Assembly (NCBI RefSeq): GCF_018687715.1
Contig: NC_056766.1
Location: 42,572,933 to 42,636,932, forward strand
Length of the DNA: 64,000 nt
DNA from: Carya illinoinensis
Lineage: Eukaryota > Streptophyta > Magnoliopsida > Fagales > Juglandaceae
Direction of reading: 5' to 3'
Of the stretch, positions 9,391-41,300 are shown piece after piece (position 1 is the stretch's first letter; each line of letters begins with the position of its first letter). The notes under the pieces were generated by a model that had not been told where the DNA came from, did not search any database, and saw nothing but the letters and a program-made list of their open reading frames with translations. Both the position numbers and the translations under genes were made by a program.

Positions 9391-9487
9391 GAACTTCCAT
9401 CCACATTTAACTTATATAGCTCCTAGTTTTTGGCCTAGTCTAACACACCTATTTTAAGACCAACTGCCTTGATCTTTTAATTGGCAA

Positions 9488-9732: not shown

Positions 9733-11622
9733 GATCTTTATAAATCGTAATGCAAGTTTTACTTGTGCACCCAATTATCTCTCCGACAAGTTAAATGTCC
9801 TTGATTAGTCTAAATATTTTTCACTGTCTTTGCTACGTGATTTTCAAGGGAAGAATCTCATTGTATTTAGGATGCGTGATAGCATCATAAAGGAGTTAGG
9901 GGACAGATTCAAGCTTAAGGTACGTACACTGATGATCATCAACAATGTTTTTTCTTTCAATTATGTAGTACACTCCATTCATTTTTTTTCCTTTTCTTTT
10001 ACAGAATTTGACAGCTATGACTTTATATGATTGTAAATTCTTAAAAAAGATTCCAGATCTTTCAAGCATCTCAAATTTGAAGGCATTGATTGTCATTTAT
10101 TGTACAAGACTAGTTGAGGTGCATGATTCCATTGGATGTTTGAAAAATCTTTCTAAGTTGAATTTTTGTAGATGCTATAAACTCCAAATCCTTCCAAGAA
10201 GCCTCAATTCGAGATCTTTAAGCTGTCTTGATTTTAGTGATTGCTTTAGCCTTCATTATCTTCCTGAAATCAAGTGTAAAATGGAATCTTTAATTGCATT
10301 GGATCTACATGGCACCACAATAGAAGAACTGCCTTTATCCATCGGGAACCTCGTTAGACTTGAGGATTCACATCTAAGGGATTGCAAAAACCTTATGCGT
10401 CTCCCAATTGCTTGCATTCGGTTGCAACATTTATGGCAACTTGACATTGGTGGTTGTCCAAAACTTGTAAAGAAGAAGAGGGATGATGGGCTATCCCTTC
10501 TGGCTATTGAGTCTACAAAAATGGAAGAGGAGATATCATTACGTGAAGAACGACTCTATGAATTGGCGCCTACAACGAATTCAAGCAATGGGAGCACTGC
10601 ATTACAATTGTTAAATCCTCAAAGTTGTTTTCGATCATAAACAAATTTCTTTCCAATATCTAGTTTCTTTACCATGTTTAACTCATCCGCCAGTTTGAAT
10701 CATTTAGATCTATCGAAGACAGAAATTGTTAGCCTTCCCACAAACACCAAAGAATTCATTACACTAGCTTGTCTTTTCTTGTGCGATTGTGAGAAAGTTG
10801 AAGAAATATTAGAGCTTTCCCCAAATATATGGTACGTAAATGTTAAGGGACGCAAGTCATTAGAAATATTTGGAGAAGTATTGGAATTCAATGGAAGCCA
10901 CATCAGCTAAAATTGATTCAAATGGATGGCTGGGAAAAAATGCATGTGAATATATGGAATGATAAAGTGCAAAACCCTTTAATGTGGAAGGTATGTATCT
11001 ATGTGTGATCTTATTTTTAATAGTATGCATGTATATATTGCTTAAATTAAATTGATAATGATGATGATGATATTGGTTTAACTGGGACTCTATGAAAATA
11101 ATGCTACTTTGTTTTCAGAAAATTAGATTCCAAATTGGTTAAGTTATGTTCATGAGTTTTTAAAAAATAATGAAATGGTAAAGGGGCCTGATGATGATGT
11201 CCGACCAAGGAAAAAAAAGAGTGGATAATAGATATTGATGGGTCGCACTATTTGGAGGAGATAAACAAAATTGTATTATATCTCGTAATATTTTGTAAAG
11301 ATGCTTCAGGCTGGCATAGAAATATTGGTGATGCTAAGATAACCAGTAACAGCTTAAATCATGTATGTTGTATTCAAGAAGGGGTACAATTGGTTAATAT
11401 GGGTTGGTACAGATCAGAGGAAAATACGATTGGTTATGCTGTCTAGGTTTTGAACTTAAAGTTTTGGACAATTTGCGAGTTCAATTTGATCTGCATTATG
11501 CTTATCTTGGGAATGAAGTGTTTTATAAAAGTTACAGAGCCAAAGTGGTATACAAGAATGAAAGGAAAGCAAATAAAGAAAGAAAAATGGATGAAGTAAG
11601 TAAGTCGCCCCTGTTCCTTTGA
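9733..11622 (+). pseudogene. TNL 3' half: LRR exons and C-terminal (C-JID/post-LRR) domain, decayed
   Basis: Paralogous to 48888-50759. The pre-LRR segment (9733-9918) ends with a splice donor at gtacgt. The LRR exon runs from 10005 (after ttttacag) to 10990 (donor gtatgt) with repeats such as LSSISNLKALIV, SLNSRSLSCLDFSDC and LPEIKCKMESLIALDL. A further exon (about 11120-11622) carries the post-LRR domain with ITSNSLNHVCCI. TAA stops at 10638-10640 and 10908-10910, frame breaks near 11220 and 11446, and a stop in the pre-LRR part show it is dead. TIR and NB-ARC are absent here; a TIR relic lies at 5605-5855. Confidence 0.85.
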
Positions 11623-13313: not shown

Positions 13314-13317
13314 TTCC

Positions 13318-13433
13318 ACATCCGCTCGAGCTCACTGTCGAGCTAACATCGAGCGTTCGAATCTGTCTGACTTCGCTTGAGCGGCCAATGCCTCTGCTCG
13401 AGTGGTGTGGACCAAACTCTATAGTACTCAACA
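13318..13433 (-). repeat. truncated 3' LTR of the minus-strand copia
   Basis: About 116 bp matching the right part of the LTR at 17433-17845 (shared ctcactgtcgagctaacatc and the terminal ctcaaca). On the minus strand it begins TGTTGAG directly after the polypurine tract caagtgggagaat. The rest of the LTR is missing and LINE sequence follows. Confidence 0.85.
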
Positions 13434-16400
13434 ATTCTCCCACTTGGAGACTGGTACACTCGTTGTATCGCCGTCCTCAAACATAATATCCTCCACCTCT
13501 ACAACTCACTGCCCCTGTCTTCATGCTAGAAGACCAACTGAAGTTGCGCACAACTTCAGTTTCTCAAGTGTAACACCCTTTGTCAACATATCAGCAGGGT
13601 TCTTGCTTCCACAAATCTTCTCAAGTAACAACTATCCGTCATCTAACAATGATCGTATGAAGTGATACCTAATCTGAATGTGCTTGATCCTGTAATGAAA
13701 TGCTGGATTCTTGGCAAGGAATATGGCACACTAACTATCACTATAGAGAGTGCCTTTCTGATTCTTTTTACCCAATTCCTCCAAGAAGCCCTGTAGCCAT
13801 ATCATCTCCTTTGCAGTCTCTGACATTGCAATATACTCAGCTTCTATAGTAGACAAAGAAACTGTTTTCTGTAGATTAGAACCCCATGACACTGCAGTAC
13901 CACCAAGTGTATAAACAAAACCCGTGGTACTCTTTTTGCTATCAATATCTCTAGCTAGATCAGCATCAACATAGCCCTGCACCTCCAAGCTCTCTCCAGA
14001 GAAACACAAACAGGTTTCTGAGGAGCCCTTTATGTACCTCAAAATCCATTTCACTGCTTCCCAATGTTGCTTTCCTAGGTTACTCATGTATCTACTCACA
14101 ACTCCCACTGCATGAGCAATATCCGGTCTTGTGCAAACCATAACATACATAAGTGAACCAATAGCTAAGGCATAAGGAACCTTACTCATGTAATCTTGTT
14201 CCTCCTCTGACTCAGGTGACTGATTCTTGCTGAGTCTGAAGTGACTGCCCAAAGGTGTGCCAACTGGTTTGGCCTTGTCCATATTGAACCTGCTGAGTAC
14301 CTTTTTCACATACCCAGCCTGTGAGAGTCTCAACGTACCTCTAACTCTATCTATGACAATTCCCATGCCAAGGATTTGCTTTGCAACTCCCAAATCCTTC
14401 ATTGCAAAGTGCTTTGACATCTGCTTCTTCAGATTATTGATCTCATCAATACTAGCCCCTGCAATAAGCATGTCATCCACATACAATAGCAAAATAATAT
14501 AAGAATTGTCAAATTGCCTGACATAGCAACAGTGATCTGCCGAACATCTAATGTACCCTGCACTGTGCATGAAGTTATCAAATTTCTTGTACCACTGTCT
14601 AGGAGCTTGCTTCAGGCCATACAAGCTCTTCTTCAATCTGCAAACTGAACCTTCCTTTCCCTGTACCACAAACCCCTCAGGCCGGTGCATGTAGAAAAGC
14701 TGTCTTCACATCTAACTGCTCAAGAAATAAATCTTCAGTAGCAACCATAGCCAGTACCATCCTGATGGTTGTGATCTTCACCACAGGAGAAAAGATCTTA
14801 GAGTAATCAATACCCTGCTTCTACTGAAAGCCTTTTACAATAAGTCTGGCCTTGTACCTCTTACTGCCATCATGCTCAGTTTTCACCCGGTACACTCACT
14901 TATTGTGTAATGCCTTCTTCCCTGATAGAAGTTCTGTCAACTCCCATATCTGATTCCCTAACAGGGAATCCATCTCATCTTTCATGGCCAGCTCCCACTT
15001 GCTAGAATTTTCATCTTGCAAGGTTTCTTCGTAACTCTGTGGTTCTCCACCATCTGTCAACAGAATGTAATTCAAAGTAGGTGAGAAATGTTGTGGAGGA
15101 CGTATAGTCCTAACTGACCTGCAAACTGTGACTGTAGGAGTGGACGGTTCTGAAACTGCCTGCGGAATAATAGGAATGGGTGCACTGGACCCACTCTCCC
15201 TGTCACTCACATCTCTACACTGCACTGTAACCTCTAGTAGGTCATCCAATCTTACAAACTCGGACTCCTGAGGAGCTACTACAGAAGGTGTACTAGACTT
15301 ATCCTTGTACATAATTTTCTCATTGAAAATCATATTTCTACTTCTTATGATCTTCAGACCCTGATCATCCCATAAACGATAGCCAAATGCCTCGTCTCCA
15401 TAGCCAATGAAATAACATTTATTTGACTTAGCCTCAAGTTTACTACGAGCATCAGAATCAATAAGCATATAAGAAAGACAACCAAAAGTTTTAAGGTGAG
15501 AAAATTTGACCTCTTTCCCGCTCCAAACCTCCTCAGGCAATCCACAATCTAGTGGAACTGATGGCCCTTTGTTTATCAAGTAAATGGCAGTGCTGACTGC
15601 ATCTCCCCAGAAAGTGGGTGGTAGTCCAGCCTGCAACCTCATGCTTCTAGCATGCTCATTAATGGTTCTGTTCATACGCTCAGTAACTCCATTTTGCTGT
15701 GGTGTCCCAGGAATGGTCTTCTCCATTCTGATACCCAGAGCTGCACAATACTCCTTGAACCCACCATGAACATACTCACCACCATTGTCAGACCTCAAAC
15801 ATTTCAGTTTCAAGCCTGTCTCTGTCTCAACCATGGCTTTCCAAATTTTGAATACATTAAATACATCAGATTTATGCTTCAAAAAATAAACCCATACCTT
15901 CCTACTATGGTCATCAATGAACGTGACATAGTAGCAAGAACCTCCAAGAGATGCCACTGGGGAAGGACCCCACACATCTGTGTGCACAAGATCCAGTCTT
16001 CCTGTCTTAGGCGTCCTGCCACTTTTCAAGAAGCTGACATTCTTTTGTTTCCCCATAACACAACTCTCACACATACTGAGATCAATTGACTTCAGTTCTG
16101 GTAGCTTGCCTCTAGACAGAAGTTCTTTCATACCCTTCTGACTCATATGGCCAATGCCACAAATCTGCTGTGCTCTCTGCAACGGTAGTAGCAATAGTGT
16201 CAATCAAAATAGTAGTCATATATAGTGTACCAATTTTCTTACCTCGAGCCAGTACCAATGCCCCTTTTGTGACCTTCTAGGTGCTATCTGAGAATACCAC
16301 TGAATGACCACACTCATCTAGTTGCCCAACAGAAATGAGGTTCTTCTTCAACTCAGGAATGTGCCTGACCTTTTGCAAGGTCCATTTGTTCTTGCCAGAG

Positions 16401-17432
16401 AGTGCAATATCAATGTCTCCCATCCCCACTACGTTCAAAGCCTCTCCATCAGCCAAATACACCTTCCCAAAATCACCTGCAACATAGTTCCGCATTAGCT
16501 CCCGGTGGGAAGATGTATGGAAGGAAGCTCCTGAATCCAGTATCCAGTCATCAACTGGACTATGAACTACAAGCAATAGTGCATCCTGTACTTCTTCAGT
16601 TACCACATTAGCACTACCATTCTCGGTCTTCTTAGGGTTTTTGCAGTTCTTCTTTATGTGGCCAGCTTTGCCACTATTCCAGCAAGTTGCCTGCTGACTA
16701 GGCCTCGACTTGCTCTTGCCCCTGTACTTTGATTTTGATCTTCCTCTATTTGAGTTCATGTCGTATGATCTCCTTTGAGAATCAACATTTAGAGCTGAAC
16801 TCAAACCCGAGGTCTCGCCTGAATCTTTCATGCGCACCTCCTCAACCAAAATCAAATCACGAATATCATCATATTTCAATTTAGATTTACCAGCAGACTT
16901 ACTTACAGTCATTCTCATGGCTTCCCAACTATTTGGCAGTGAAGCCAATAGTATCAATGCACGTATCTCATCATCAAATTCAATTTCAACAAACGACAAT
17001 TGATTTGTGATAGTATTAAAATCATTCAGATGTTGTGCAACAGACGTGCCATCTGCTATCTTCAAATTGAATAACTTTTTCATCAAATGTACCTTGTTAT
17101 TTGCTGACGACTTTTCATGCATACTTGAAAAAGCCGCCATGAGATCCGCAGTCGTCTTCTCCTTGATGACGTTGTGTGCAATGGATCTCGACAGGGTTAA
17201 TTGAATAACCCCCAGAACCTGTCGATCTAACAGGTTCCAATTTGCATCATCCATCTTTTCCGGTTGTTGTCCCAATAGTGGAAGATGAAGTTTCTTCCCA
17301 TAGAGGTAGTCCTCTATCTGCATCTTCCAGTATCCAAAATCCGTGCCATCAAACTTCTCGATCCCCGAAGCCTTCAATTCATCTTCAGCCATCGTTTTTT
17401 CTCAGACCCGAACCTTGGCTCTTGATACCAAT
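13434..17432 (-). pseudogene. Ty1/copia gag-pol pseudogene
   Basis: Nearly complete copia interior on the minus strand. Gag spans 17392-16277 (start MAEDELKASGIEKFDGTDF, knuckle CWNSGKAGHIKKNC, protease motif ILDSGASFH). Integrase and connection span 16203-14896 (HTDVWGPS, LRSDNGGEY, PQQNGVTERMN). RT and RNase H span 14690-13731 (YVDDMLIAG at about 14471-14484, DSKKSTTGFVY). The RNase H tail continues after a stop at 13731 to about 13516 (NPADMLTKGVTL). Stops or frameshifts separate gag from integrase (about 16276), integrase from RT (about 14820-14896) and break RNase H (Q to stop at 13731). The knuckle has Ser in place of its second Cys. Confidence 0.92.
17418..17432 (-). other. copia primer-binding site
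   Basis: On the minus strand tggtatcaagagcc directly follows the LTR end, a met-tRNA-type primer site. It fixes the orientation of the element as minus. Confidence 0.8.
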
Positions 17433-17845
17433 TGTTGTGAAAAATGATTACAATAAATTGAAAAGAATATGGAACGAGAAAAACAATCACACACGACACA
17501 AGATTTACATGGTTCGGCAAATTGCCTACGTCCACGGGAGCTGCATAGGATTTTATTATTGAGGAATATCACACTACAATGATGGATCAATCACTGTACG
17601 TCCACAGTGTCTCTACGGTATGGCCATATGATATAATAATCATATATATAGTCAAACGGCGAAAAAACCCTAAAAATGCATGTTCGCTCGAGCGGCGTGT
17701 CGAGCGCGCGTTGAGCGAACTTCCTTCCCGCATCCACTCAAGCTCACTGTCGAGCTAACATCGAGCGTTCGAATCTGTCTGACTTCGCTCGAGCGGCCAA
17801 TGCCTCTGCTCGAGCGGTGTGGACCAGACTCCACTGTACTCAACA
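17433..17845 (-). repeat. 5' LTR of the minus-strand copia
   Basis: A 413-bp repeat bounded by TGTTGTG...CTCAACA. It includes a CpG-rich stretch around 17690-17720 (cgctcgagcgg...tcgagcgcgcgttgagcg), an AT-rich TATA-like region near 17630-17650, and the block shared with 13318-13433. Confidence 0.88.
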
Positions 17846-19440
17846 AGTAGAATGTGACTAATTTTGGAACCAAACAGTGAGTGACCCAGATGGGTTGGAC
17901 AAGGTACTAAAAGCAAGAATCTAATTAAACCCAAATGGGTTGATGAAGATTCTCAAGTCCAGAGAAATGAAACAACAAATAGTTCTACCAGTGTTTTACA
18001 AAATGGATCCATCGATAGTGCGGAAACAAAAGGAAAATTATGGAGAGGCATTGGCCAACTACAAAAGCATTTAATTTGCATTCTCATTTAATTATTAACC
18101 TTGCTGCATGGCTAGCATATGCTTGCAGGTTGTTGCCAAGAAGTCGCCGACAAGTTTCTCTTCTTTTTCTAACCCACTTCAAAGACATTTGTCGGGAAAT
18201 TAAATCAAGAGAAAGATCTAACATCCGGAAGATTGGTGACAAAGACCTAATTAGATGCCACTTTAAGGAAGTTGCCGATTAAGAAATTTTGTTCTATCTT
18301 TTCCTTTAACACATTTGGTTTATATACCAAAAATATATCCAAGTCATGCATGTCATCAACATATTTATAAACAATTATGATTTTAGTTCTTAGGAGATAT
18401 TTTATAAAAACTTCATGTTAAGTATATTTACGTTATGATGAGTTTTTTACTGAGTCTTCTACTCATTTTAGTTTATTTTATATTTTTAAATCATCTCAGG
18501 TTAAAATATTTATGAAGGTTGAGCTGCAGGACATGACTTGGTTTAGGGAGGCGTGATAGTGAACTAAATCATGTACAGAGATTTTAAGTTATTATTTTTA
18601 TAGCATAGATTTTGAGAAATGTTAATAAATGATTTTGTGCACTCTCTTATAATCTCAATATTTTTAAATAAAGAACACTTTTATAGGATCTTTGCATCTG
18701 GTGCTTCTTTAAGAAAGAGTCATTATTGGCACATGGTGACGATTCAGGCCTTAATCGGTATGGTTTGGAGTCCTCGATGGCAGTCTGGAGCGGTGGTGCG
18801 ATGCTCGTCCATATTTGTATAGATAGAGACAGAGATAGACATATTTGTATAGATAGAGACAGAGATAGACATAGCAGTGAATATAAAATAAATATAACAA
18901 ATATAGATAGAGGCAGAGATAGACATATTTGTATGGTTCGGCACAGTACTTATTTCCAATGGTCGTTTGGAGGGAAATCCACTATATAATATGAGTATTT
19001 TATATTCTCTTCTCATTTCTTTTAGTATAATGGAGGTCGGAGACCTCTTATCTAGAGAAAATATCCTAAAGCTCTTATTCTCAGATTGAAAATGACCTCT
19101 CTATGTTCTTGTCCTCCCCCTTGGTCGTCTAGAAGTGCCCTTTTCATTAAACCCTTGTCAGTGGTTGGTGAGGAACTCAACTTTATGTTGCTTCACCTAC
19201 CCTGTGTGTTTGACTCGCTTTCTCCCCTTTTTTCCTTTTTTTCTCTTTCCTGTCATCTTCTTTTTTTCCCTCTAACACTTGTTTTCCCTTTTCTCTTCTT
19301 CCTATCTCCTTCTATTATCTTTTCCTAGCCTTCTCCCTTTTCTATTCTCCCCCTTAGCTTCCTAATGATATTTGGCCTTAGTGAGTCTTGGGATGGGTCT
19401 AGAATATTTACCCCCGACGTAAATGAACTCGTATAATCGT
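17846..19440. other. intergenic with TNL-upstream-like sequence
   Basis: About 18100-18290 resembles sequence that precedes TIR exons elsewhere in the window (gttgttgccaagaagt, a pyrimidine-rich stretch, acccacttc..., aattaaat). The remainder is AT-rich to 18700 and pyrimidine-rich at 19085-19345. No coding sequence supported. Confidence 0.45.
18811..18934 (+). repeat. 30-bp tandem repeat
   Basis: Two perfect 30-bp units (18811-18840 and 18841-18870) beginning atatttgtatagatag are followed, after an AT-rich spacer, by a diverged third unit at about 18901-18934. Confidence 0.9.
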
Positions 19441-19443
19441 GTG

Positions 19444-19445
<2 letters not shown>

Positions 19446-19508
<63 letters not shown>
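19446..19508 (+). repeat. compound (AC)n(AT)n microsatellite at the pararetrovirus edge
   Basis: About 22 AC units are followed by about 9 AT units, directly adjoining the outer end of the minus-strand viral copy. The outer end of the plus-strand copy (about 29960-29982) also runs into a short atatatgtgtgtacacacac tract. Confidence 0.9.
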
Positions 19509-19819
19509 CAAACGATGCAGAATCAAGTGAAGATAGAGAGAAAATGAGCGCAAAGATAAATGACAACAATTAAACATGAACAGAGTATCTTTGGAGTCTC
19601 AGACTTCCAATGCATGAAATGCGAAATATGAAATAAGAAAATATTGAATCAAATATTATTAATTGAAAGTAAATATTTAAAGCAAAGACTTACAAGGTTG
19701 AAATAAAGAAAAAAGAAGAGAAGGAAGGTGAATTTGGGCTTGCAAGTAAGTAGGAAGCAGTTCTTGTTGAAGGTGAGTTCGACTAGAAAGTTTTGCATTC
19801 CCCTGAAAATGAAGCGTCC

Positions 19820-19826
19820 TTTTATA
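19820..19826 (-). promoter_or_regulatory. pararetroviral promoter TATA box, copy A
   Basis: tctataaaaggacgc on the minus strand, downstream of the second ORF, where the genomic-RNA promoter of pararetroviruses lies. Conserved in copy B at 29637-29643. Confidence 0.65.
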
Positions 19827-20098
19827 GATGAAGGAAGCGCTTTTACAAACAGTGAATCCCATAAATCACATAAGTGCTTTTACTATTCACTTGTCATAAG
19901 CATGCATCCGTCGAAAGTAGTTTTGTCTTCTTCCGCCGAAAGTGAAATATTCTTTCTGCACCCAAAGCACCGAAAGTAACTCTGTCTTTTTGTGCTTTCT
20001 TCTTGTGCCGCAAGTAAATTATAATGAGTAAACCATATTTCTGTCCCCAAAAAGTTGATACTCCGAGGTTGAGAAGAGGACAAATGGTCAGGCATGAT

Positions 20099-21475
20099 TC
20101 AATTATTTCTCAGTCGAGGGGGATAGTCTTTTGAGTCATGACCGAAAATCATGTAAGGATTAGAGGCTGCTGAGTCTGCTGACGAGGCTTCTGATTCCTT
20201 ATCCGAACCATCACTGTTGGAGTTGTCTTCCATGGACTTCTTCAATAGTTCAAGTAAATCTTTCTTCTTCAATCTGTCAAAGGGAGACTTTTGCTTTGAA
20301 GAAGAGGCTGAATCTTGAGAAGCTGTAGAATTCTTCTTCTTGGCTGAAGACGACTCTTTCTTCTGCTTTGATGAAGAACTCCTTGATTCCGAACCTGAAG
20401 CTTGATCACTTGATCCTGGGATGGTTGGATATGTAATCAAAGCCTGCTTTGGGGTAGGGGAAGGAAATTCTTGTTTATCCTTAAGGTCAGGAACAACAAG
20501 AGGAAAATCAGTTGAAATTATTGAAATAATGTCATTTGTGTGGGGAAATTTATCCCACCATTTGACAAAATATTGGCGAAGTAAGATGTCTTCTTTTTTG
20601 GTATACTGCCATCTACAAATCCAGGGGGTTTTGTATTTGGCACAGAAATGAAGTAAGGCAAGGAGTTTGGTCTCTCTTCCTTTCATCTTAGGTATACAAG
20701 AAATGGTAAAATGTTTGATAGCTTGCTGAAGACTATCAGGAAATAATTTAGTAATAGGGCCAAAGAAATGCCACCATTTCTGAAACTATAGAGGAAATGA
20801 ATGCTTGCACTTCTTGTCGAAGTTGAAGAACCAAGAGTGCTACATGTTGGGGGTTTGAACTAAAGGAAACTTTAACCAGGCTTCAATATAATCGTAATAA
20901 TTATATTGAGTTTCAGTTCTCTTAATGGTTTTGAAAGTAGAAGGGTGGGTTTCCCATTCTTCTTCGGTCATAACAGAAATAATGAAACAATTATGAAAAA
21001 TGATCTTTGAGGGATCAATTTTACAATGAATTGGTTTAATAAAGATGGAACCGGTGTTAACCAAGATTCTGAGATAAAATGAGAGGTTCTTTTTCAGATC
21101 ATCTGGGATCCGATGAAAACCTCAAGGGAAATAATCTTGAGCAATTTGGAAGGGATCTATGTTTACCGATTTCTCAATGTAAAACAAATTCTCAAACCAA
21201 GCTTTTTTGAAATATTCTGCCTTATTGGCAGAGGGAAATCTGGGTGTTGTCGAAGCCAAAGGGTTTGCATACGGATCATATGGCATGGCTAGGGTGGAAG
21301 CAAATGAACTAGGGGAAATAGGTCTAGGAACTTGTCCTAGACTGGTAAATCTGTTGGCTATCTCCAGTAGGGAAGAAGCCAAAGTAGATGCAAATCCCGG
21401 AGGCATAAGCATTGGATAAACAGATGTTGGTGATGGTGAAGTAACCGGTAGGACAGGTTTCTTCTTCTTACTCAT
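20099..21475 (-). pseudogene. pararetrovirus ORF2 (unknown function), copy A, three nonsense codons
   Basis: Starts MSKKKKPVLPVTSPSP at 21475 and ends ...YPPRLRNN at 20099, about 458 codons if read through. The N-terminal 60 residues are Pro/Ser-rich. A central part of about 230 residues is rich in aromatic residues, Trp and Lys. The C-terminal 150 residues are low-complexity Ser/Lys/Asp-Glu (SSKQKKESSSAKKK). Stops at 21122-21124, 20840-20842 and 20786-20788 interrupt it; copy B has sense codons at all three. It lies right after RNase H and ahead of the promoter region. I do not know its function; a second ORF after RNase H has been reported in some florendoviruses. Confidence 0.75.
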
Positions 21476-21479
21476 GTTT

Positions 21480-23450
21480 TCTGCAAGAATTCACGGGTAA
21501 GAAAATCAGGAATAGAATTATCAGATCCTTTGATAAATTCAATATCATAATCAAAAACACCTAAAATAGCTTGCCATCATGCGAAAATCTGTTTTGATGC
21601 AATGTTTTTTAACATCTTGTTCTAAAACAGTTTTAGCAGTTTTGTAATCAATGCGTAAAAGAAAGTGTTGGTTAAGTAAATCACTTTGAAATTTTGAAAT
21701 ACATAGTACTACAGATAAAATATCTTTTTTAATAGTATTATAGTTATGCTGTGCATGATTCTAGGTTCCAGAGTGGAAGCGAACAATCTGTTCAGAAGAA
21801 CCCGGTGAAACCACTTGTTTCAGGATGCCGCCATAGCCTATGTCTGAGGCGTCAGTTTCGACAATCTTGAAGCTGTTTGAAGTAGGAATGCCAAGACACG
21901 GAAGAGTTTTGACATGTGTCTTGATTTGTTTGACAACATTGGTGTGAACATCTGTCCATGGGGAAGGATTAGAACGCAATCTCGCAAAAAGAGGGCGACA
22001 TTGTTTTCTCATATCCTTGTAGAAATCTGAAATATAATTCAAAGAACCAAGAAATCTTTGAAGTTGATTTTTGTCAAGGATGACATCAGGAAATTTGTCA
22101 GCAAATTCAATGGCTCTCTGGATGGGCCTGATTTTGCCTTCAAAGATGTCATAACCAAGGAATCTGATCTTGGTTTGAAATAGTTTAATCTTTTTTGCAG
22201 AAACAACTAGTCCATTTCTTTTGACGATCTCAAGAAACGTTTTAAGATGTTTCCAGTGCTCATCAATAGATTTGGAGAATACAAGAACATCATCTATGTA
22301 GACGATGGTGAAATCAGTGAATGATAGAAAGATACCATTCATAATATTTTGAAATTCACTAGGAGCGTTCTTCAGTCCAAATGGCATGACGTTCTACTCA
22401 TAGTGACCGAATGGAGTAGTGAAAGCAGTCTTGTATCTGTCTGACTCCCTAATTTGGATCTGCCAAAATCCAGACTTAAGGTCAAACTTGGAGAAAATAA
22501 CTACATCACTTAACCTATGAACCAAGTCATTCTTGTTAGGGATGGGATACCTAATCCACTCTATCACCTTGTTCAATGGTTTGTAATTAATAACTAAACG
22601 GGGTGTAACTCGCTCAATCTCAGCATTTTTCTGGACATAAAAAGCAGCACATGACCAGGGTGACTTACTATGCCTGATGATATTCTTAGCAAGAAGATCC
22701 TAGATTTCATTTTTACAAAACTCCAGAGTTTCTCTATTCATTTGAATAGGTCTTGCTTTGGTTGGAATCAAATTTTCTGAGAAATCTTTGATATAAGGTA
22801 AAGAAACAACATGTTTCTTCCTATGCCAGAAAGCATTAGGAAGTTCCGAGCAGACTTCATAAATCAAAGTTTTTTGAAAATCTTCAATTTTTGATCTAAG
22901 CAAGGAATCATGCAAATTATCAGAAACACGTTTGAACTTGATTTCTTGTTTAAGAAAATCTAAATGTTTTCTTTTTGTGGAAAGCCAAAACACAGATCTT
23001 CTAGCAGTATCGCGTTCAAACTTAGAAGCAAACTTAAACTTAACTTTCTATGCAAAGGGGTCGGTAGTGATCCCATCGGCCTTAGAAAGGAATGGATAAA
23101 TCATGTTAAGAAAAGGCATACCAAGAATAACATCATGGGTCAAATTCTTAACAAGCACAGAAGGAATTTTAAAACAAACATTGTCCTGGCAGACATGAGC
23201 TGTGTTTAACTCATAACGAATCTTCATTTTAGATCAGTTTGCCGAGAATAAATTCTCTTCGGACTTTTCGAAATAGGAGGTAGGAACTAGGCCTTCTCGG
23301 ATACAATTAAGATCCGCTCCTGAATCGATTAATGCAATAGCAGAGAATTTGTATTCATGATTGACAATAATCTATACCAAACAAAACCATTTTTGCATAA
23401 TAGAACGGTGAATCAAGCAAATATCCTTAGTCAGACTGGAGGGTTCAACA
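21480..23450 (-). pseudogene. pararetrovirus protease-RT-RNase H region, copy A
   Basis: Minus strand. The aspartic protease motif DSGAD is at about 23312-23326. An RT segment begins near 22990 and runs through PIPNKNDLVHRLSD and FSKFDLKSGFWQI to the YIDD active site at 22289-22300. RNase H (IVETDASDIGYGG) is near 21830-21850, and its C-terminal part FIKGSDNSIPDF is near 21510. Nonsense codons at 22700-22702, 22394-22396 and 21761-21763 break it. An extra A in an A-run (plus-strand T6 at 21605-21610) shifts the RNase H tail out of frame. The protease-RT junction also lacks a continuous frame (about 22990-23250). Confidence 0.88.
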
Positions 23451-23455
23451 TGGTC

Positions 23456-25177
23456 TTACTGGTTTGATTCTTCACCAGAAGGACTGTCATGATCAAATTC
23501 TTTATCCAACTTTAAATATGCTAAATCCTGTTTAAAAGAAGCATTCTCAGATTTGAGAGTCTTGATCTCTTCTCTGAGTTCAGTAATCTCTTTTTTAACA
23601 AGAGTTACCTCATGCTGCAAACCCTTTAATGAAATATCTTTGGGTTTTTGTTTTTGAAAGCGTCCCAAAGTTTCTTCAAAAGAAATCTTGCCCTTAGAGA
23701 ACGATGGCTCTTTACGAGTCATTGTCTCTTTAAGCTTCTTGAGATATTTCTCTTTTAGCTCAGGGTCTTGAATCTGTGAGATGATAGAGAGGAGCATGTT
23801 TTCATGTTCCTGCTCTTTACTCAAAACAGGTTCTTGTTCTCTTCTACCGTCTAAAACATTGATTGTTTTGACTTTAGAAATACAACAAGAATCATTACAA
23901 CCAAGCTTAATATTTGGTGAGTTAGAATGATCAGAGTCCGAGTGGTAATCTGAGCCACTAGAACTAAATTCATCCTCATCCGAAGATGTAGGAGATCTAT
24001 GTTCAAGTAATTGAAACAGATCTTCTTGATCAACGGCATTGATATTTAACTCATTAAGCTTTTTCTTAAAACTTTGTGGCTTCTTTGTACACTTATTCGC
24101 ATAGTGTCCAGGTTGGCCACAATTAAAACACGTTCCCTTTGCAAGGGCTTTTAAAACCTTTTTCTGAAATGGTTTCTTTCTTGAAACCGGTTTTGAAACA
24201 GGTTTTTTATAAAACTCCTCATGAGATCTGTTATAGTTCTTGCGAGATTTTGAAAACTTTTTAGAACTCTTTCTATGCTGCACGGATGGAGCAATAGGAG
24301 GAAGGCCAAATTGTTCGCAAAAGTTTCCCATCTCGTATTTGGCTTTCTTTCTATCCTTCATCTGTTGAGCAATCATCCTTTGATCATTGCACATACTAAT
24401 ACCAAGTTTCTGAATAATACTTACAATGTCACCATAAGTATAATTATCATAATTCAGATAACCCGTAATATCAGTAAGTGAGTCCTTTACCTTAATGGCG
24501 AATAAACGAGGCAATCCATCAATGAACTTCTCTTTCCAGTAAGGTTTTTGGGAATCATCCCTAAGCATAACACGAGACATAAAAACATCTTTATACCAAC
24601 GATAATCAGACATTTTATTGCATCGTAAATTATTCAAATAATTAGAAATTCTATTTGTGATGTTGGAAGGGGTTCCAACAAAATGTTTAACTATGGTATA
24701 AATCAGGGTATTGACACTATCAGGGGTTCCTTGGGTCCCTTCCCTTTGGTTCCCTTCAGTATCTATAACGGGTAAACCATCTTCATCCTTTTTTATGGCT
24801 GAATGAATGGTTTCCCTTACTTCAGCAGTGAGATGTTTATCCCACCAAACACGAAGCATCCCTGAAAATCCACTGGTCAGGATATCAACAATCTCAGTCT
24901 GGCTAAGTTTGTTGTTATAATAAGCAACGGCAACCATAGACATACGATTCAGAGTATTGAGGATTTCTTGCTCAGAGAATCCATCAATATTCCATTCATA
25001 CATTTGGTCAGCAGATACGGAAAATTGAGATTGAAAACCTCTTTCTTCGTACTGTAAATCAGGAGTGGGTCTAGAATACCAGTTTTTCGTGAGACCTATT
25101 GGTTTTATGTCTCTCGAATATATCCTGGCAAGGTTTTTCAACTTGAAGACCCTGAAATTTATTTTCAAGTAAATCAA
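23456..25177 (-). pseudogene. pararetrovirus coat protein region with CCHC zinc finger, copy A
   Basis: 573 codons open. The N-terminal third reads as a structural protein (SADQMYEWNIDGFSEQEIL, then LIYTIVKHFVGTPSNI). A basic Lys/Arg stretch leads to the CCHC finger CFNCGQPGHYANKC at about 24090-24131, typical of caulimovirid coat proteins. An acidic Ser/Asp segment (about 23930-23990) and a C-terminal coiled coil (LKGLQHEVTLVKKEITELREE) follow. The N-terminal junction with the upstream frame is shifted near 25180, so this was part of a longer ORF1. It remains the longest uninterrupted viral frame in the window. Confidence 0.8.
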
Positions 25178-25181
25178 TTTT

Positions 25182-26365
25182 CTAAACTAAGGAATTATCA
25201 AACAAAGAAACATCATCATCAGAATCATTCCTAGTATGCACAGAAAAGGAATCATTGAAATTAACCCCTGGGTTGTTTCTGTCTATAGTTGAAACAAAGG
25301 GTTTTTCTTGCTTAACTATAGCAAGCATTTGATCAATTTTAGCCAAAGTACTGGTCTCTCCAAAATGGATCTTTGACCTGTCTTCTGGCAGAATAATTAA
25401 AGGTTTTTCAACCATTTTCAAACTTGTTGAAGTAGGTTTTTCAAAAACAAGTTTTTCAACTTTATCCTCTATACGGTCGAGTTGTTGACCTATTATATGG
25501 AGGGTCTGGTTGACGAAGTTGTTTTGTTCTATGATCTTTTTTGTTTCAGCTAAAACATTTTCATTCAGACCTGGATCCGAGATTTTAAAAGGTGAAGCTT
25601 TTACTTTTTTCCCTTTGACTGAAACAAGGATGATTTCTAAAGGAGAGTGGCTGGTTTTCACAACTTTCCTGCCTTCTTCTTTAGTAAAGCTTGATTTTAA
25701 AACATTTAAATACTGTTTTGAATTATCCTTCTTTGAAACATAATGATTTTCAAGAAAATTAAAGAATAAGATGTGCTTGTTATCCTTATACATCTTTTCT
25801 TCCATTCTTTTCGAATATTCTGTTTCTAAGAAATTGAGTAAATCCTATGATAAGTTTTTCACTTATCATGGTTTTCTTTAGACATAAAATCAGCATGTAA
25901 ATTAATCATATCAATAATGAGTAAATCAGAATCTAAATCATCAAGTGCTTTATCCAATACCATTAAACTGGAATGGATAGGAGCAACCATATCCGAAGCT
26001 GTAGGAGATGTTGACTCGGCATCATCTTCTACTTGTACTTCTTCCTTTACGGATTTACCATTGGATTTAAGATCATCTCTGGTTGAATAATAAGCAGAAG
26101 TAATCTGGGACTTAGTTGAAATTCCTTCCAACTTTATGTCTTGGTCTGAGGGTCCTCCTTTTGAGTGAAGTTCCCTGATCATAATTGGACGAGCAGGATT
26201 ATCACGATCCTTCAAGTATCTTTCGAGATTTTTATCTCGTAGATCTTGGTCCGAGCTAAATGACGACCTAGATCCAGCAAAAGAATTTCTTCTTTCTTTG
26301 ATCGAAGGTTGGTCAAAAGCAATCTTTACAGTACCATCAAGATACTGTTGGATATACTTAAGGTT
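25182..26365 (-). pseudogene. pararetrovirus ORF1 region between movement and coat proteins, copy A
   Basis: Two open segments, 26215-25859 and 25805-25182, linked across a frameshift near 25815-25860 and separated from the movement protein by a TGA near 26364. The second segment contains a coiled-coil-like stretch (KKIIEQNNFVNQTLHIIGQQ) and an acidic tail. No enzymatic motif. The position corresponds to the poorly conserved linker of the viral polyprotein. Confidence 0.6.
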
Positions 26366-26932
26366 TCAGTTTTGGGCTGGTACTTCCATGAAAGGAAGTT
26401 CCTGCTTGAGTACCCATTCATCCGGAAGACTTACATCTTTCCAGAATAGCATCTTGGGTGTCATGATGTTGGAGTTCATTGTTGAACTATACATCAAAAG
26501 AGTTTCATTTTTTGGAGACTTAATCTTAGCCTTTGGCTCAAGGCTAGTGCTTAAGACTCTGTAATAGATGCGGTAAACTAAGGACATTGGTCTGCTACCT
26601 TCAACCATATCAAAACCAGATGTTTGGACATTTAAAGTTAAAATAGACAAAACATTTTTATCAAATAAATCAACAGTTAAATCTGGATAGCAGTTAAAAT
26701 GAACAGGTCCATCAATCAGAGAAGTTTGAACTACTACTAGAACACTATCATTGAATTGCTTAAATCTGCCATCACGTAAACATAAAAGAACACAAGCATC
26801 AATACCTTTTCTTACTAAAGGTACAATGGCTACTTGAACAGAAGCAATATGCATAAATTTAAAACCTTTCTCTTGAAAAGATTTTATCATTTTCTTTTGA
26901 AAGAGAACACATTGTTCATATTTTAAGTCCAA
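26366..26932 (-). pseudogene. pararetrovirus movement protein (30K superfamily), truncated, copy A
   Basis: 189 open codons carrying the 30K-type movement-protein core: HIASVQVAIVPLVRKGIDA, VLLCLRDGRFK, then DGPVHFNCYPDLTVDL. Movement proteins of this family modify plasmodesmata for cell-to-cell spread. The first part of the protein is missing: the frame begins at the junction with copy B (about 26940), and the apparent Met is an internal residue. No functional product is expected. Confidence 0.75.
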
Positions 26933-26967
26933 ATTAGGTCCAAATTACTAAAGATTTTACCCCACAC

Positions 26968-28020
26968 ATGGTTCATAGGTTAAGTGATGCAGTTATTTTC
27001 TCCAAGTTTGACCTTAAGTCCAGATTTTGGCAGATCCAAATTAGGGAGTCAGACAGATACAAGACTGTTGTCACTACTCCATTCGGTCACTATGAGTGGA
27101 ACGTCATGCCATTTGGACTGAAGAACGCTCCTAGTGAATTTCAAAATATTATGAATGATATCTTTCTATCATTCACTGATTTCACCATCGTCTACATAGA
27201 TGATGTTCTTGTATTCTCCAAATCTATTGATGAGCACTGGAAACATCTTAAAACGTTTCTTGAGATCATCAAAAGAAATGGACTAGTTGTTTCTGCAAAA
27301 AAGATTAAACTATTTCAAACCAAGATCAGATTCCTTGGTTATGACATCTTTGAAGGCAAAATCAAGCCCATCCAGAGAGCCATTGAATTTGCTGACAAAT
27401 TTCCTGATGTCATCCTTGACAAAAATCTACTTCAAATATTTCTTGGTTCTTTGAATTATATTTCAGATTTCTACAAGGATATGAGAAAACAATGTCGCCC
27501 TCTTTTTGCGAGATTGCGCTCTAATCCTTCCCCGTGGACAGATGTTCACACCAATGTTGTCAAACAAATCAAGACACATGTCAAAACTCTTCCGTGTCTT
27601 GGCATTCCTACTTCAAACAACTTCAAGATTGTTGAAACTGACGCCTCAGACACAGGCTATGGCGGCATCCTGAAACAAGTCGTTTCACCGAGTTCTTCTG
27701 AACAGATTGTTCGCTTCCACTCCGGAACCTGGAATCATGCACAGCATAACTATAGTACTATTAAAAAAGATATTTTATCTGTAGTACTATGTATTTCAAA
27801 ATTTCAAAGTAATTTACTTAACCAACACTTTCTTTTACGCATTGATTGCAAAACTGCTAAAACTGTTTTAGAACAAGATGTTAAAAAACATTGCATCAAA
27901 ACAGATTTTCGCACGATGGCAAGCTATTTTAGGTGTTTTTGATTATGATATTGAATTTATCAAAGGATCTGATAATTCTATTCCTGATTTTCTTACCCAT
28001 GAATTCTTGCAGAAAACATG
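26968..28020 (+). pseudogene. pararetrovirus RT-RNase H, copy B
   Basis: Open from 26968 to 27942: RT with YEWNVMPFGLKNAPSEF, the YIDD active site at 27193-27204, and RNase H with IVETDASDTGYGG and SGTWNHAQHNYSTIKKDIL. The RT N-terminal part is absent. An A6 run at 27883-27888 puts the last RNase H segment (about 27890-28020) in another frame, the same indel as in copy A. All the RT and RNase H nonsense codons of copy A in the shared region are sense here. Confidence 0.88.
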
Positions 28021-29395
28021 AGTAAGAAGAAGAAACCTGTCCTACCGGTTACTTCACCATCACCAACATCTGTTTATCCAATGCTTATGCCTCCGGCATC
28101 TGCATCTACTTTGGCTTCTTCCCCACTGGAGATAGCCAACAGATTTACCATTCTAGGACAAGTTCCTAGACCTATTCCCCCCAGTTCATTTGCTTCCACC
28201 CTAGCCATGCCATGCGATCCGTATGCAAACCCTTTGGCTTCGGCAGCACCCAGATTTCCCTCTGCCAATAAGACAGAATATTTCAAAAAAGCTTGGTTCG
28301 AGAATTTGTTTTACATTGAGAAATCGGTAAAAACAGATCCCTTCCAAATTGCTCAAGATTATTTCCCTCGAGGTTTTCATTGGATCCCAGATGATCTGAA
28401 AAAGAACCTCTCATTTTATCTCGGAATCTTGGTTAACACGAGTTCCATCTTTATTAAACCAATTCATTGTAAAATCGATCCCTCAAAGCTCATTTTTTAT
28501 AATTGTTTCATTATTTCTGTTATGACCGAAGAAGAATGGGAAACCCACCCTTCTACTTTAAAAACCATTAAGGGAACTGAAACTCAATATAATTATTACG
28601 ATTATATTGAAGCCTGGTTAAAGTTTCCTTTAGTTCGAACCCCCAACATGCAGCACTCTTGGTTCTTCAACTTCGACAAGAAGTGCAAGCATTCATTTCC
28701 TCTGTGGTTTCAGAATTGGTGGCATTTCTTTGGCCCCATTACTGAATTATTTCCTGATAGTCTTCAGCAAGCTATCAAACATTTTATCATTTCCAGTATA
28801 CCTAAGATGAAAGGAAGAGAGACCAAACTCCCTCCCTTACTTCATTTTTGTGCCAAATACAAAACCCCCTGGATTTTTAGATGGCAGTATACCAAAAAAG
28901 AAGACATCTTACTTCGCCAATATTTTTGTCAAATGGTGGGATAAATTTCCCCACACAAATGACATTATTTCAAGAATTTCAACTGATTTTCCTCTTGTTG
29001 TTCCTCACCTTAAGGATAAACAAGAATTTCCTTCCCCTACCCCAAAGCAGGCTTTGATTACATATCCAACCATTCCAGGATCAAGTGATCAAGCTTCAGG
29101 TTCGGAATCAAGGAGTTCTTCATCAAAGCAGAAGAAAGAGTCATCTTCAGCCAAGAAGAAGAATTCTACAGCTTCTCAAGATTCAGCCTCTTCTTCAAAG
29201 CAAAAGTCTCCCTTTGACAGATTGAAGAAGAAAGATTTACTTGAACTGTTGAAGAAGTCCATGGAAGACAACTCCAACAGTGATTGTTCGGATAAGGAAT
29301 CAGAAGCCTCGTCAGCAGACTCAGTAGCCTCTGATCCTTACATGATTTTCGGTCATGACTCCGAAGACTATCCCCCTCGACTGAGAAATAATTGA
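28018..29395 (+). pseudogene. pararetrovirus ORF2 (unknown function), copy B, one frameshift
   Basis: Starts MSKKKKPVLPVTSPSP at 28018, overlapping the end of the RNase H frame (aaaacatgag). It is open for 308 codons to 28944, then continues in another frame to 29395 because of one extra T in the run near 28921-28928 relative to copy A. Same architecture as copy A: Pro/Ser-rich N-terminus, aromatic- and Trp-rich middle, Ser/Lys/acidic C-terminus. Function unknown. Apart from that indel it is the best-preserved ORF2 in the window. Confidence 0.8.
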
Positions 29396-29636
29396 ATCAT
29401 GCCCGACCATTTGTCCTCTTCTCAACCTCGGAGTATCAACTTTTTGGGGACGAAAAGATGGTTTACTCATTATAATTTACTTTCGGCACAAGAAGACAGC
29501 ACAAAAAGACAGAGTTACTTTCGGTGCTTTGGGTGCAGAAAGAATATTTCACTTTCGGCGGAAGAAGACAAAACCACTTTCACTGTTCATCCCGTGATTT
29601 ATGGGATTCATTGTTTGTAAAAGTGCTTCCTTCATC

Positions 29637-29643
29637 TATAAAA
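29637..29643 (+). promoter_or_regulatory. pararetroviral promoter TATA box, copy B
   Basis: catctataaaaggacgc, followed by the conserved leader. Relative to copy A, about 45 bp just upstream (near 29580) are missing. Confidence 0.65.
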
Positions 29644-29960
29644 GGACGCTTCATTTTCAGGGGAAGGTAGAACTTTCTAGCCGAACTCACCTTCTGCAAG
29701 AACTGCTTTCTACTTACTTGCAAGCCCAAATTCACCTTCCTTCTCTTCTTTTTTCTTTATTTCAACCTTGTAAGTCTTTGCTTTAAATATTTACTTTCAA
29801 TTAATAATATTTGAAAGTTTTGATTCAATATTTTCTTATTTCATATTTCGCATTTCATGCATTGGAAGTCTGAGACTCCAAAGATACTCTGTTTATGTTC
29901 TATTGTTGTCATTTATCTTTGCGCACATTTTCTCTCTATCTTCACTTGATTCCGCATTAT

Positions 29961-30875
29961 ATATGTGTGTACACACACATAAATGAACTCTTTTAAATTC
30001 AATTAATAGTACTAAGAATTAGATATAAAAAGGAAATAATTAAATATCAAACTTTCAATTGGATTTGACACAATACCCACTCATTTCAATTGCATCAATC
30101 CACTCAGGCCCCACGCCAATAATATTGATGGATCGAGGATGGATTGGCTTAATAAGAGAATATATATATATATATATAGTAATTAAATAATAAAGTTGCA
30201 TGGAATTAGTTTATGTCCAAAGTAAAATGCACCCATCTACACGGTTTTGAACTTTAATTAAATTCTAGTATCAACTTTAGACTTTTGAGTTTTTCTGACG
30301 TGGGAGCATTGAAAATTCATTCCATTAACTACGCCTGCTCCAACATCTTTCGTTCTCCTCACAGCAATAATGACGAATCGAGGATGGATTATTAGCTTAA
30401 GAAGCGAATATATAGTAATTAAATAAATTTGCATGGAATTAGTTGGTTTAGTAAGTCAATTGCTGTGGCACCAATTAATTGATCATTTTAAACAATTTTG
30501 AAAGTTTTAAAGTTGTATCTTTATGGGATATTCTTCTGTCCTTTTACAACAAAGTCATCATCTAATGAAAATCAATGGACCAATTTGAACATCTTTTTTT
30601 TTTTTTTTTTTTTTTGAAAAAGTATCAACTTGCTTTGAGACCAAATTGATCACTTTAAGGATAGTAATGGGCCAACTAAATCAATCTTTCAATTGGATTT
30701 GATACAATATTCCCATTTCAAGCAGGTAAGCTGCATCAATCCAGGCCCAGGGAATAATTAATGCTCCCATTGTATTTACAATACCTCTTTTCCATGACCT
30801 GCTGTCTCACTAGATTTCCATGACATTTCATACTCAACCTTAGATTTCCATGACATTTCATACACAACCTGCTCA
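29961..30875. other. host flank between pararetrovirus and CACTA
   Basis: AT-rich host DNA with an (AT)n tract at 30161-30178 and a poly-T at 30594-30615. It contains pieces recurring elsewhere in the cluster: acttttgagtttttctgacgtgggag near 30285, the module ending ttgatcatttta near 30480, ctttgagaccaaattgatca near 30635, and a segment around 30665-30710 repeated at 46930-47015. A duplicated atttccatgacatttcatac lies at 30812-30862. No gene. Confidence 0.55.
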
Positions 30876-30939: not shown

Positions 30940-31835
30940 CTATAGTTATATTCCAGCGATTACCTAATCGCCGCCTATTCGCCGGTATTATTCTTCCACT
31001 TTACATATAGCACGGCGAATAAAGAAAATCGCCGTGAAAAAATGAATATTTAGCAGCGATTTTGTATCGCTGGCATATACTTTCAATACCGTCAAATTCT
31101 ATTCCAGCGATTCGTAAATCGCTGCAAAATTAATTAGCAGCGCTTCCATAGTCGCTGCCATATACTGTCCATGGTTACAAAACATATGGCAGCGATACAT
31201 ACATCGCTGGAAATTGGGTTTGCAGCGCTTTTGTAATCGCTGCCAAATACGTAACCATTTCCAAAATCATATGGCAGCGATAGAAAAATCGCTGCCAAAG
31301 AGTAAGGCAGCGGTTTTTTAATCGCTGCTATATAGTTTTCCTGTTTCAAAAATATATGGCAGCGATTATAAAATGGATGCCATATGATTTTGCAGCGCTG
31401 ACGTAATCGCTGCCATATGCGTTTCAATTTCCAAAATCATATGGCAGCGATAGGAAAATCGCTGCCAAATTATATAGCAGCGGTTCTTTAATCGCTGTTA
31501 TATACATTGCCTGGTTCAAAACTATATCCCAGCGATCCCAAAATCGCTGCTATATGATATGACAGCGCTGTCTTAATCGCTGCTAAATCCATTTTTACTT
31601 TTCAAATTATATGGCAGCGATAAAAAATTCGCTGCTATATGATATGGCAACGGTTTGTTAATCACTGCTATATAGTTTTCTATTTCAATAGCATATGGCA
31701 GCGAGATAAAACTCGCTGCCATATGATTTGCCAGCGACTAAAAATCACTGCAATAGGATTTTCTGAAATGGGAATCTATCGTATTAAATGGTTTTTTAAA
31801 ATTATTGACGGCGATTAAAAAATCGCTGGAGAAAC
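30940..31835 (+). repeat. CACTA subterminal palindromic repeat array
   Basis: About 20 copies of an imperfect palindrome, gcagcgat, a 5-8 bp AT-rich spacer, atcgctgc, often within atatggcagcgat...atcgctgccatat, spaced about 35-60 bp. Examples start near 31050, 31100, 31136, 31190, 31227, 31275, 31306, 31395 and 31445. In En/Spm such subterminal repeats are bound by the TNPA protein during transposition. Only a few related units are near the other end (about 46527-46680). Confidence 0.9.
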
Positions 31836-38318: not shown

Positions 38319-41300
38319 TTAATCTGACCCAACATCATCGTCTGTGGATAGGTCCTCCTCATCTGAATATTCCCCCTCACTACACGCATCTTCAGAGCCA
38401 GAATTCATCATGTCATCATTAATAAAGTCTGATGAATCTATGCATTTACCATCCACATGCATGACTTCCCGTGCATCAATATGGCTAGGTGGTATATCAA
38501 GCCGATCCAGTGGAGTTGACACTGGATCAGAGTTATCACACTGCACTGGTTCATAATAATATGATGACTCATTTTCTTGATCGGCCTCATGGGTACTTGA
38601 TTCGCCATCATTAATATCTGTGTTACTCCTCGACATGGACGGAATGTTGTATACATTCCTATTTGTATAGTTCTGCACAACACCCCAATTCCCTTTCACC
38701 CTTAAATCTCTTATGTAGAAACATTGATCAGCCTGACTTGCCAACACGAACGGTTCATCCTTATACCAAATTCTGCTCAAGTTGACACTAATCATATGGT
38801 CGTCCACCCGTACCCCTCGTTTTCGATCACCAACGTCATACCAATCACATTCAAATAGGTACACCTGACGCACTCCATGTAGCGTAACTCTATGATATTT
38901 TTAAGACAACCGTAAAAGTCTGCATTATTTGTGGCCTCGTCCCCAGTTACCAAAACCCCAGAATTTTGTGTACGCCGGCGAAGTTCACGACCCTTCGTAT
39001 GAAACCGCTTTCCATTTATTATGCATGCATCATATGATGCAACCCAACGGTCAGGCCCCGCAAGCCAACGCATACAGATCAGCTGACACATCAAGTGGGT
39101 TCTTGGTACGATGTTCCTGGATCTATAGCAATATTGTTGAAGATTTACAAGTTTTTATTATTTTTCATAATTCCAAAACATGTCAAATAAATTTATGATG
39201 TCAACATAGATAAGTATGGAGGAGAACTTACACAGTGCTTGAACCAAGTTGCAAACTTGGTTTGATGCGTGCTCACGATGCTGTTTGGGTGTTGCACCCT
39301 ACATTTCTCATAGTGTTCCCTGAATTTGGAGCACATAATCGCAACACAGTTTCAACAAGCGTTATGGGCATGCATATATAAAAACTTGTTAAGTTTGAGA
39401 TGGAAGTAGATTTTGATCTAAAAGAGATTGATGCTTACTGTATATAGGGTCCAATCTCCGGACAATTGTTGAGCACATACCATATGGCTGCCTTAAAGAG
39501 TTTATCTTCTAATTGCACATTGGAAGCTATACCCAAAGGACGAACTTTCTTGTTAAAAACTCGGAATCCATCTATAGTTTCCTCTTCATCAGCATCAATG
39601 TTGCGGTCTGCTCGATTGAACTTCGTCTCAACATCTTGGAGGTATATGGAGCAAAATGTCAGGCATTCAGTGTGAATGTAGGCCTCGGCTATTGAACCTT
39701 CTGGTCGGGCCTTATTCTTAACATACCGCTTGAATTTGCCTAGATATCTCTCAAATGGGTACATCCACCTATATTGTACTGGACCTCCAAGTATAGCCTC
39801 ATGGGGCAAATGGACAGCTAGATGGACCATGACATCGAAAAAGGAGGGAGGGAATATCATCTCCAGTTTGCATAAAATGGTGACTATATCAGTTTGGAGC
39901 TGGGATAGGCGATTCACATCCAGTGTGCGAGCGCACAACTCTTTGAAGAAAGTGCTAAGTTCAGTCAAAGTCAAGGCAATGTCACTTCTTAAAAACCCCC
40001 CTGCAGCAATTGGGAGTAGTCTTTGAAGGAAAACATGACAGTCGTGGCTTTTCAACCCAGTGATTTTGCTATCACGTGTAGAAACACAGTTCGAGATATT
40101 GGAAGAGAACCCGTCTGGAAATTTGATATCGCGTAGCCACTCACATAACTTCTTCCTTTCATCTCCATGTAATGTGTACAGTGCATGCGGCATTGTTACA
40201 TGATCACCTTCACGCCTCAAATGTAATTCTTTTCTATAGCCCAATAACTCCAGGTCACGCCTTGAATTGATATTATCCTTAGTTTTTCCTGAACTGTTCA
40301 TTAAAGTGAAAAAGACATTCTCGGCAATATTCTTCTCAATATGCATAACATCTAAATTATGCCGAAGTCGAAGTGTTGACCAGTAAGGTAACGTGTAGAA
40401 TATGCTGCACTTTGTCCAATTCAGCTCTTCGGCAGTACGTTTTCTCTTCCTAAGAGATTTGCCAAACGTCACGTCCCCAATCATCTGCAATTGAGTTAGA
40501 ATATCGTATCCTCCCAAATCCCTTAGTGGCATGCGATGATCTTCTTTACTGTTGAACAACCCTTTCCTCCTTCTCCACATGTGATCTGGCTGTAAGAAAC
40601 GTCGGTGTCCCATATAACAATGTTTTCGGCCATATTTCAACCAATTGGAGTCCGTGTCAGCATTACAAGATGGACAAGCTAATTTTCCCTTTGTTGACCA
40701 GCCAGAGAGATTCCCGTAGGCAGGAAAGTCATTGATTGTCCACAACAATGCAGCATGCAGCGTAAACGTCTCCTTACTTGAGGCATCATATGTGGGTACC
40801 CCATATTCCCAGAGTTCAAGCAACTCATCCAGCAACGGTTGCAAGTAAACATCGATCTCATTCCCTGGTGACCTTGGCCCTGGAATAATCAGAGATGTTA
40901 TAAAGAATTGGTCTTTCATGCATGACCATGGCGGCAAGTTATACGGGACAAGGATCACAGGCCAAATGCTATGAGGTTTAGCCAAGTTGTTGAAGGGAGT
41001 GAAGCCGTCACTTGCTAGTCCGAGCCTAACATTACGAGGATCCGCAGCGAACCAACTATGATGTTCATCAAATTTCTTCCAAGACTCAGAGTCAGCCGGA
41101 TGTCTCATACTACTATCTTCTATTGCCCGATGCTCTTTATGCCATCTCATATCACCTGCTATCTTCGCAGACATAAAAAGACGCTGCAATCTCGGTTTCA
41201 ACGGAAAATGGCGCAACACTTTTTGAGGTATGACGCGTGATCCGTGTGTATTTGGCATCCACCTCGAAGCCTTACATACAGGGCATTCATTAAGCATGGC

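Follow-up and report, generated by a model that had tools for sequence, protein, structure and literature searches.

Two truncated copies of a florendovirus-like caulimovirid form an inverted repeat in the pecan genome

A stretch of 64,000 nucleotides of the pecan genome (Carya illinoinensis, contig NC_056766.1, positions 42,572,933 to 42,636,932; hereafter the window, to which all coordinates refer) hosts an inverted repeat of 3 kb made of endogenous pararetroviral DNA. The arms, found at 19515-22527 on the minus strand (arm A) and at 26966-29957 on the plus strand (arm B), are about 97% alike; each is a truncated copy of the same florendovirus-like endogenous caulimovirid of the Carya genome. 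Because the changes separating them look neutral and are mostly private to one arm, the sequence indicates that the copies were nearly identical, and the compared frames open, when they were paired at or near integration, and that they have decayed independently since. The locus is most likely a passive fossil.

The inner ends of the arms are separated by 4438 nt. Four co-linear inverted blocks of 1961, 658, 221 and 139 nt, 96-97% complementary, were returned by an inverted-repeat search, and in a BLASTN comparison of the window with itself (E <=1e-10) the arms matched at 2534/2616 and 341/364 positions. A preliminary description of this DNA had set the arms at 19515-22530 and 26964-29960, which is correct to 3 bases or fewer, around a loop of 4.4 kb. 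No additional copy of either arm was found in the window by the BLASTN self-search, nor any additional viral copy by tblastn with four viral pieces (E <=1e-3). The global alignment of the arms features 105 mismatched columns (75 transitions and 30 transversions) and only three gaps, of 1, 31 and 9 nt. Within the promoter region one segment (19870-19912 in arm A, 29582-29593 in arm B), whose bounds are the ends of the BLASTN blocks, has been replaced, not altered by substitutions. Since some of the 20 mismatches counted in its 200-column bin fall in it, the true substitution divergence between the arms is about 3.1-3.6%, the upper figure being the Jukes-Cantor value of 0.036. The noncoding end of the arms shows 31 mismatches in 553 columns.

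Matches to the Pfam profiles of reverse transcriptase (RT) and RNase H were found in both arms. Arm A is the 3' part of viral copy A, and includes RT, RNase H, a second open reading frame (ORF2) and an intergenic region with a TATA box; arm B is a second, shorter viral copy, which begins within the RT domain and continues through the same features. The RT-RNase H frame of arm B (26968-27942, plus strand) is open for 324 codons, and the homologous codons of arm A include two in-frame stops. ORF2 of arm B is split into a first piece of 308 codons (28018-28944, plus), matched in arm A by codons with three in-frame stops, and an end piece in a different frame (28850-29395, plus), the arms differing by one base in length near 28923. 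A TATAAAA box, the putative pregenomic promoter, is found close to each outer end, at 29637-29643 on the plus strand in arm B and at 19820-19826 on the minus strand in arm A, and both boxes are directed away from the repeat. The spacer (22528-26944, minus) hosts the remainder of copy A, distributed over several stop-to-stop frames: a movement protein (PF01107, 26366-26932, minus) which lacks the first third of the profile, covers positions 65-177 of 191 and is truncated N-terminally at the junction with arm B; a coat protein region featuring DUF7746, Caulimovir_coat_dom and the zf-CCHC zinc knuckle (23456-25177, minus); and the start of RT. Movement and coat genes are matched only here. The head-to-head pararetrovirus pair, the confinement of these two genes to the middle and the outward promoter ends had all been proposed in the preliminary description, and are confirmed.

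The order movement protein, coat protein with CCHC, RT, RNase H is thus present, in a frame that is interrupted in copy A. Among the frames scanned no aspartic protease was matched, and the ORF2 that follows RNase H has no Pfam match, hence no viroplasmin domain; Rfam gave no match at gathering scores. Of 19 database relatives of ORF2, 13 are Carya illinoinensis proteins, which are also the closest named ones, and six are jgi proteins without a telling name. DNA relatives of RT were found neither in the viral nor in the genome contig collection, and the viral collection held none of ORF2. An RT 69% identical to that of arm B (P0027) is filed under a metagenome assembly of a Nitrosopumilaceae archaeon, a filing that is probably due to plant contamination. 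The name florendovirus-like has been preferred to a firmer one as support from a protease match, a primer site or an RT tree is lacking. In the open-licence literature of PubMed Central (PMC) no paper was found that names both Carya illinoinensis and Caulimoviridae, or Carya together with both endogenous viral and pararetrovirus terms, and the main text of PMC9794742 mentions neither Carya, Juglans and Fagales nor the word 'inverted'.

The differences between the arms have been analysed in the 324 RT-RNase H codons and in the first 308 codons of ORF2 (632 codons). The 63 coding changes comprise 15 synonymous, 43 replacement and five stop changes. Under the observed transition bias, neutrality predicts 28, 68 and 4%, respectively, and the synonymous share fits this expectation (P 0.49); ratios of nonsynonymous to synonymous rates (dN/dS) of 0.2 and 0.5 are both rejected (P 7e-12 and P 7e-4). 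The arm differences look neutral. Synonymous changes should be in the majority if the divergence had built up between replicating viruses. All five in-frame stops are in arm A, so that none is common to both. The 48 replacement differences were polarised against all 19 ORF2 relatives and against 40 of 120 listed RT relatives (1368 were found), a single agreeing relative being enough to assign a change, and neither the end piece of ORF2 (28942-29392) nor the noncoding end entering the count. Twenty changes fell on arm A, 13 on arm B, 14 were mixed and one was uninformative; the split of 20 versus 13 is not significant (P 0.30). At 235 sites of the two genes conserved in at least 90% of the relatives, eight changes are found in A only, seven in B only, and four are shared, which makes 15 private changes versus four shared. 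Arm B was considered as a younger, working copy and rejected as such: it is free of stops, but its private changes at conserved sites are nearly as numerous as those of A (seven versus eight). Arm A has perhaps decayed faster. Plant substitution rates are 2-7e-9 per site and year, and set against them the divergence gives a time since pairing of the order of 3-9 million years.

In viral sense both arms terminate in CTTGATTC(T/C)GCAT (..GATTCYGCAT), at the identical viral base. The viral genome measures 7-8 kb, and two random truncations of such a genome would seldom stop at the same base; the common outer end is therefore probably a natural viral terminus. Beyond the end of arm A six bases are followed by (TA)9(TG)n, whereas (TA)3(TG)3..(CA)n begins immediately beyond the end of arm B. 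Both simple repeats, (AC)n(AT)n at 19447-19508, which stops 6 bases short of arm A, and (TA)n(TG)n..(CA)n at 29958-29979, which abuts the outer end of arm B, have been taken as host DNA. The window contains seven tracts of at least (TA)6, one located 6 bases off arm A and another 0.2 kb off arm B. A search with the arm end plus the primer site retrieved three contigs; the four viral pieces gave 14 tblastn rows against them, the best at E 0.31, and the contigs are taken as chance matches. An 11-bp direct repeat, TAAATGAACTC, is found at 19420-19430 and 29980-29990, and brackets simple repeats and virus together. In a control in which the 71-base flanks were set against random segments of the window, 40 of 20000 draws of 71-bp segment pairs had a common non-repeat 11-mer, draws less than 3 kb apart having been skipped yet counted in the 20000. 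The pair hints at a single insertion into a staggered break, and is a possible target-site duplication of the unit formed by repeats and virus.

At the inner junction the truncated movement gene is fused to the middle of RT. About 21 bases (26945-26965) lie between the movement frame and the homology of arm B to arm A, and have no clear source in the window, where the best matches are of 12 bases or 16/18, at chance level. The junction adjoins a doubled TCCAAATTA, an 11-base form of which is also found inside both arms (27035 and 22458). To judge from their sequence, the junction bases look like end-joining filler.

The origin that we favour, and hold to be probable, is that two 5'-truncated viral DNAs were joined head to head, captured at or near integration in a break at a repeat site, and then left to neutral decay. 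The two linear molecules would have derived from the same florendovirus-like pararetrovirus and ended at the identical viral position; the simplest candidate for it is the genome terminus, at the discontinuity left by the reverse-transcription primer. Joined by their ends with a little presumed filler, they would have entered as a composite a break in a palindromic (CA)n(TA)n(TG)n host repeat, both copies afterwards decaying as neutral DNA. According to the main text of Geering et al. 2014 (PMC4241990), florendoviruses favour TA(n) sites and may act as filler DNA in break repair. The inverted homology, the coincident outer ends, the simple-repeat flanks, the unplaced junction bases and the neutral, mostly private changes are seen in the sequence itself; the single event, the identity of the viral end, the order of events and the filler nature of the junction we infer.

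Several observations weigh against this origin. A tRNA-Met primer site is found at neither end: the window has six loose matches, where 3.6 are expected by chance, and none of them falls in 19400-30100. Since the site would be expected next to the arm end, the genome terminus is inferred rather than observed, and the two copies may have been truncated at the primer site or short of it. The direct repeat TAAATGAACTC was noticed after the fact, and simple repeats intervene between it and the virus. In the ORF2 end piece, outside the coding test, dN/dS is lower (0.43; four synonymous and six other changes). The stops (5 versus 0, P 0.06) and the C-to-T/G-to-A loss transitions (47 on A versus 28 on B, P 0.037) would also fit an older A. 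Finally, an inverted duplication arising within the chromosome would leave much the same pattern if it soon followed the insertion of a single copy, A being inserted first and its 3' part then copied inversely to the other side by an error of replication or repair.

Such a duplication accounts for the common outer end and for a simple-repeat flank at both sides, and the neutral, mostly private divergence is what it would produce; however, beyond the simple repeats the TAAATGAACTC 11-mer is direct, not inverted, and no inverted block of at least 60 bases is found outside the arms at that place. We regard it as unlikely. Separate insertions of two related viral strains at the same TA-rich hot spot, A being the first, would agree with the somewhat more advanced decay of arm A in transitions and stops, and with the frequent targeting of TA-rich sites described in the main text of PMC4241990. 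Strains that had diverged as viruses should, however, carry the mark of purifying selection, and none is seen in the arm comparison; the private lesions at conserved sites are also similar in number in the two arms. Two insertions are for these reasons quite improbable. Inverted repeats are, moreover, a known type of assembly or library foldback artefact, and a foldback of this kind is expected to be near identical. Arms about 3% different, with 105 mismatched columns, only three gaps, stops confined to one arm and changes that relatives polarise to both, do not fit it, and near-identity at pairing followed by independent decay also argues against it; an artefact is very improbable.

The preliminary description had further held that a long foldback RNA would result from transcribing either of the arms. 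This is wrong, as a single transcript would have to run some 10.4 kb, through one arm, the spacer and the other arm; that description was accordingly half right, for the pair, the outward promoter ends and the content of the spacer hold and the step to the foldback does not. RNAs started at the viral TATA boxes would run for about 0.3 kb before leaving the repeat and, being sense in either arm, would not be mutually complementary. For the locus to be a source of hairpin-derived 21-24-nt small interfering RNAs (siRNAs), a promoter other than the viral ones would have to drive transcription over its whole length of about 10 kb. A role in antiviral silencing is a functional claim compatible with any origin: a neighbouring or cryptic promoter would yield the foldback RNA, and the resulting 21-24-nt siRNAs would act against related viruses and sibling copies. 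The stem would be of 3 kb, with 2877 Watson-Crick positions and, among the 105 differences, 34 or 41 wobble pairs depending on the strand, all given as counted positions and not as a computed fold; perfect runs reach 109 nt, and 1449 of 2992 22-mers of arm A are perfect in arm B. Targets may exist, as 13 of the 19 ORF2 matches are in the pecan genome, and tomato and soybean offer a precedent in the account given by PMC10377300. Nevertheless, both viral TATA boxes point outward (29637 on the plus strand, 19826 on the minus strand, each about 0.3 kb inside the outer end of its arm), no inward promoter was identified by inspection of gene orientation, no eukaryotic promoter prediction having been run, and the neutral-looking divergence shows no trace of upkeep. 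The idea is of a known kind and by analogy plausible here, and as a description of this locus it is doubtful. A bolder version, in which a dimer captured as a unit would be a heritable RNA-immunity locus of a woody tree, its 3 kb hairpin driven from outside and its siRNAs restraining sibling Carya pararetroviruses, is more doubtful still.

Some mobile elements are candidates for read-through into the repeat by orientation alone. Plus-strand copia pieces (167-1768 and 8777-9454) are directed toward the repeat from a distance of at least 10 kb, as are the minus-strand tnp2-type transposon genes (38.3-42.0 kb) from some 8.4 kb. The copia element at 13-18 kb, on the minus strand, reads away.

This last element (13316-17846) is of the Ty1-copia type, encodes gag, integrase and RVT_2, and lies between 119-bp repeats 92% alike, which as long terminal repeats of the element would be unusually short. 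The tnp2-type transposase (38322-41996, minus) features DUF4218, DUF4216 and Transpos_assoc domains, and is of a CACTA-like type. An 85-bp unit is repeated eight times in tandem at 31047-31736, 1.1 kb beyond arm B; its copies are about 70% alike and contain short CAGCGAT..ATCGCTG inverted motifs. The viral pair is located among resistance-gene-like fragments. Disease-resistance leucine-rich repeat fragments are duplicated at 9735-11442 and 48888-50599 (81% alike), a disease-resistance-like fragment at 49137-50177 is a 99% match to a pecan protein, and a TIR domain is found at 62268-62804.

Should the arms prove to be matched by siRNAs, what has been observed in tomato and soybean would be extended to a tree lineage, and the locus would be a well-bounded one for asking whether plants retain inverted repeats of viral origin as an immune memory. 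Were it to have no function, the coincident viral ends and the junction would still be a clear record of the entry of caulimovirid DNA into chromosomes.

Endogenous florendoviruses are characterized, in the main text of PMC4241990, by a polyprotein with movement, coat and aspartic protease domains, RT and RNase H (MP-CP-AP-RT-RH1), by an ORF2 after RNase H without homologues in other caulimovirids, and by a tRNA-Met primer consensus at the genome start. The pecan locus has the same order of movement, coat, RT and RNase H, followed by an ORF2 without Pfam relatives, and TA-rich simple repeats, frequent but not universal in florendoviruses, are found at its ends as well. It differs in its decayed frames, in the undetected protease and unseen primer site, and in the head-to-head layout; the words 'inverted' and 'head-to-head' are absent from that main text. 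The banana eBSV loci are described in PMC10377300 as recent and replication-competent, whereas both pecan copies are decayed. Rearranged caulimovirids forming inverted repeats in tomato give rise to dense 22-nt siRNAs which silence matching transcripts, as PMC10377300 relates citing Valli et al. 2023, and similar cases are reported there for soybean; the tomato loci, called TSAs, are also covered in PMC12904150. In the accounts of these two sources the TSAs are transcribed, produce siRNAs and silence their targets, whereas the pecan locus is known from its sequence and has its viral TATA boxes directed outward. Common to both is a rearranged caulimovirid in the form of an inverted repeat capable of folding back (PMC10377300, PMC12904150).

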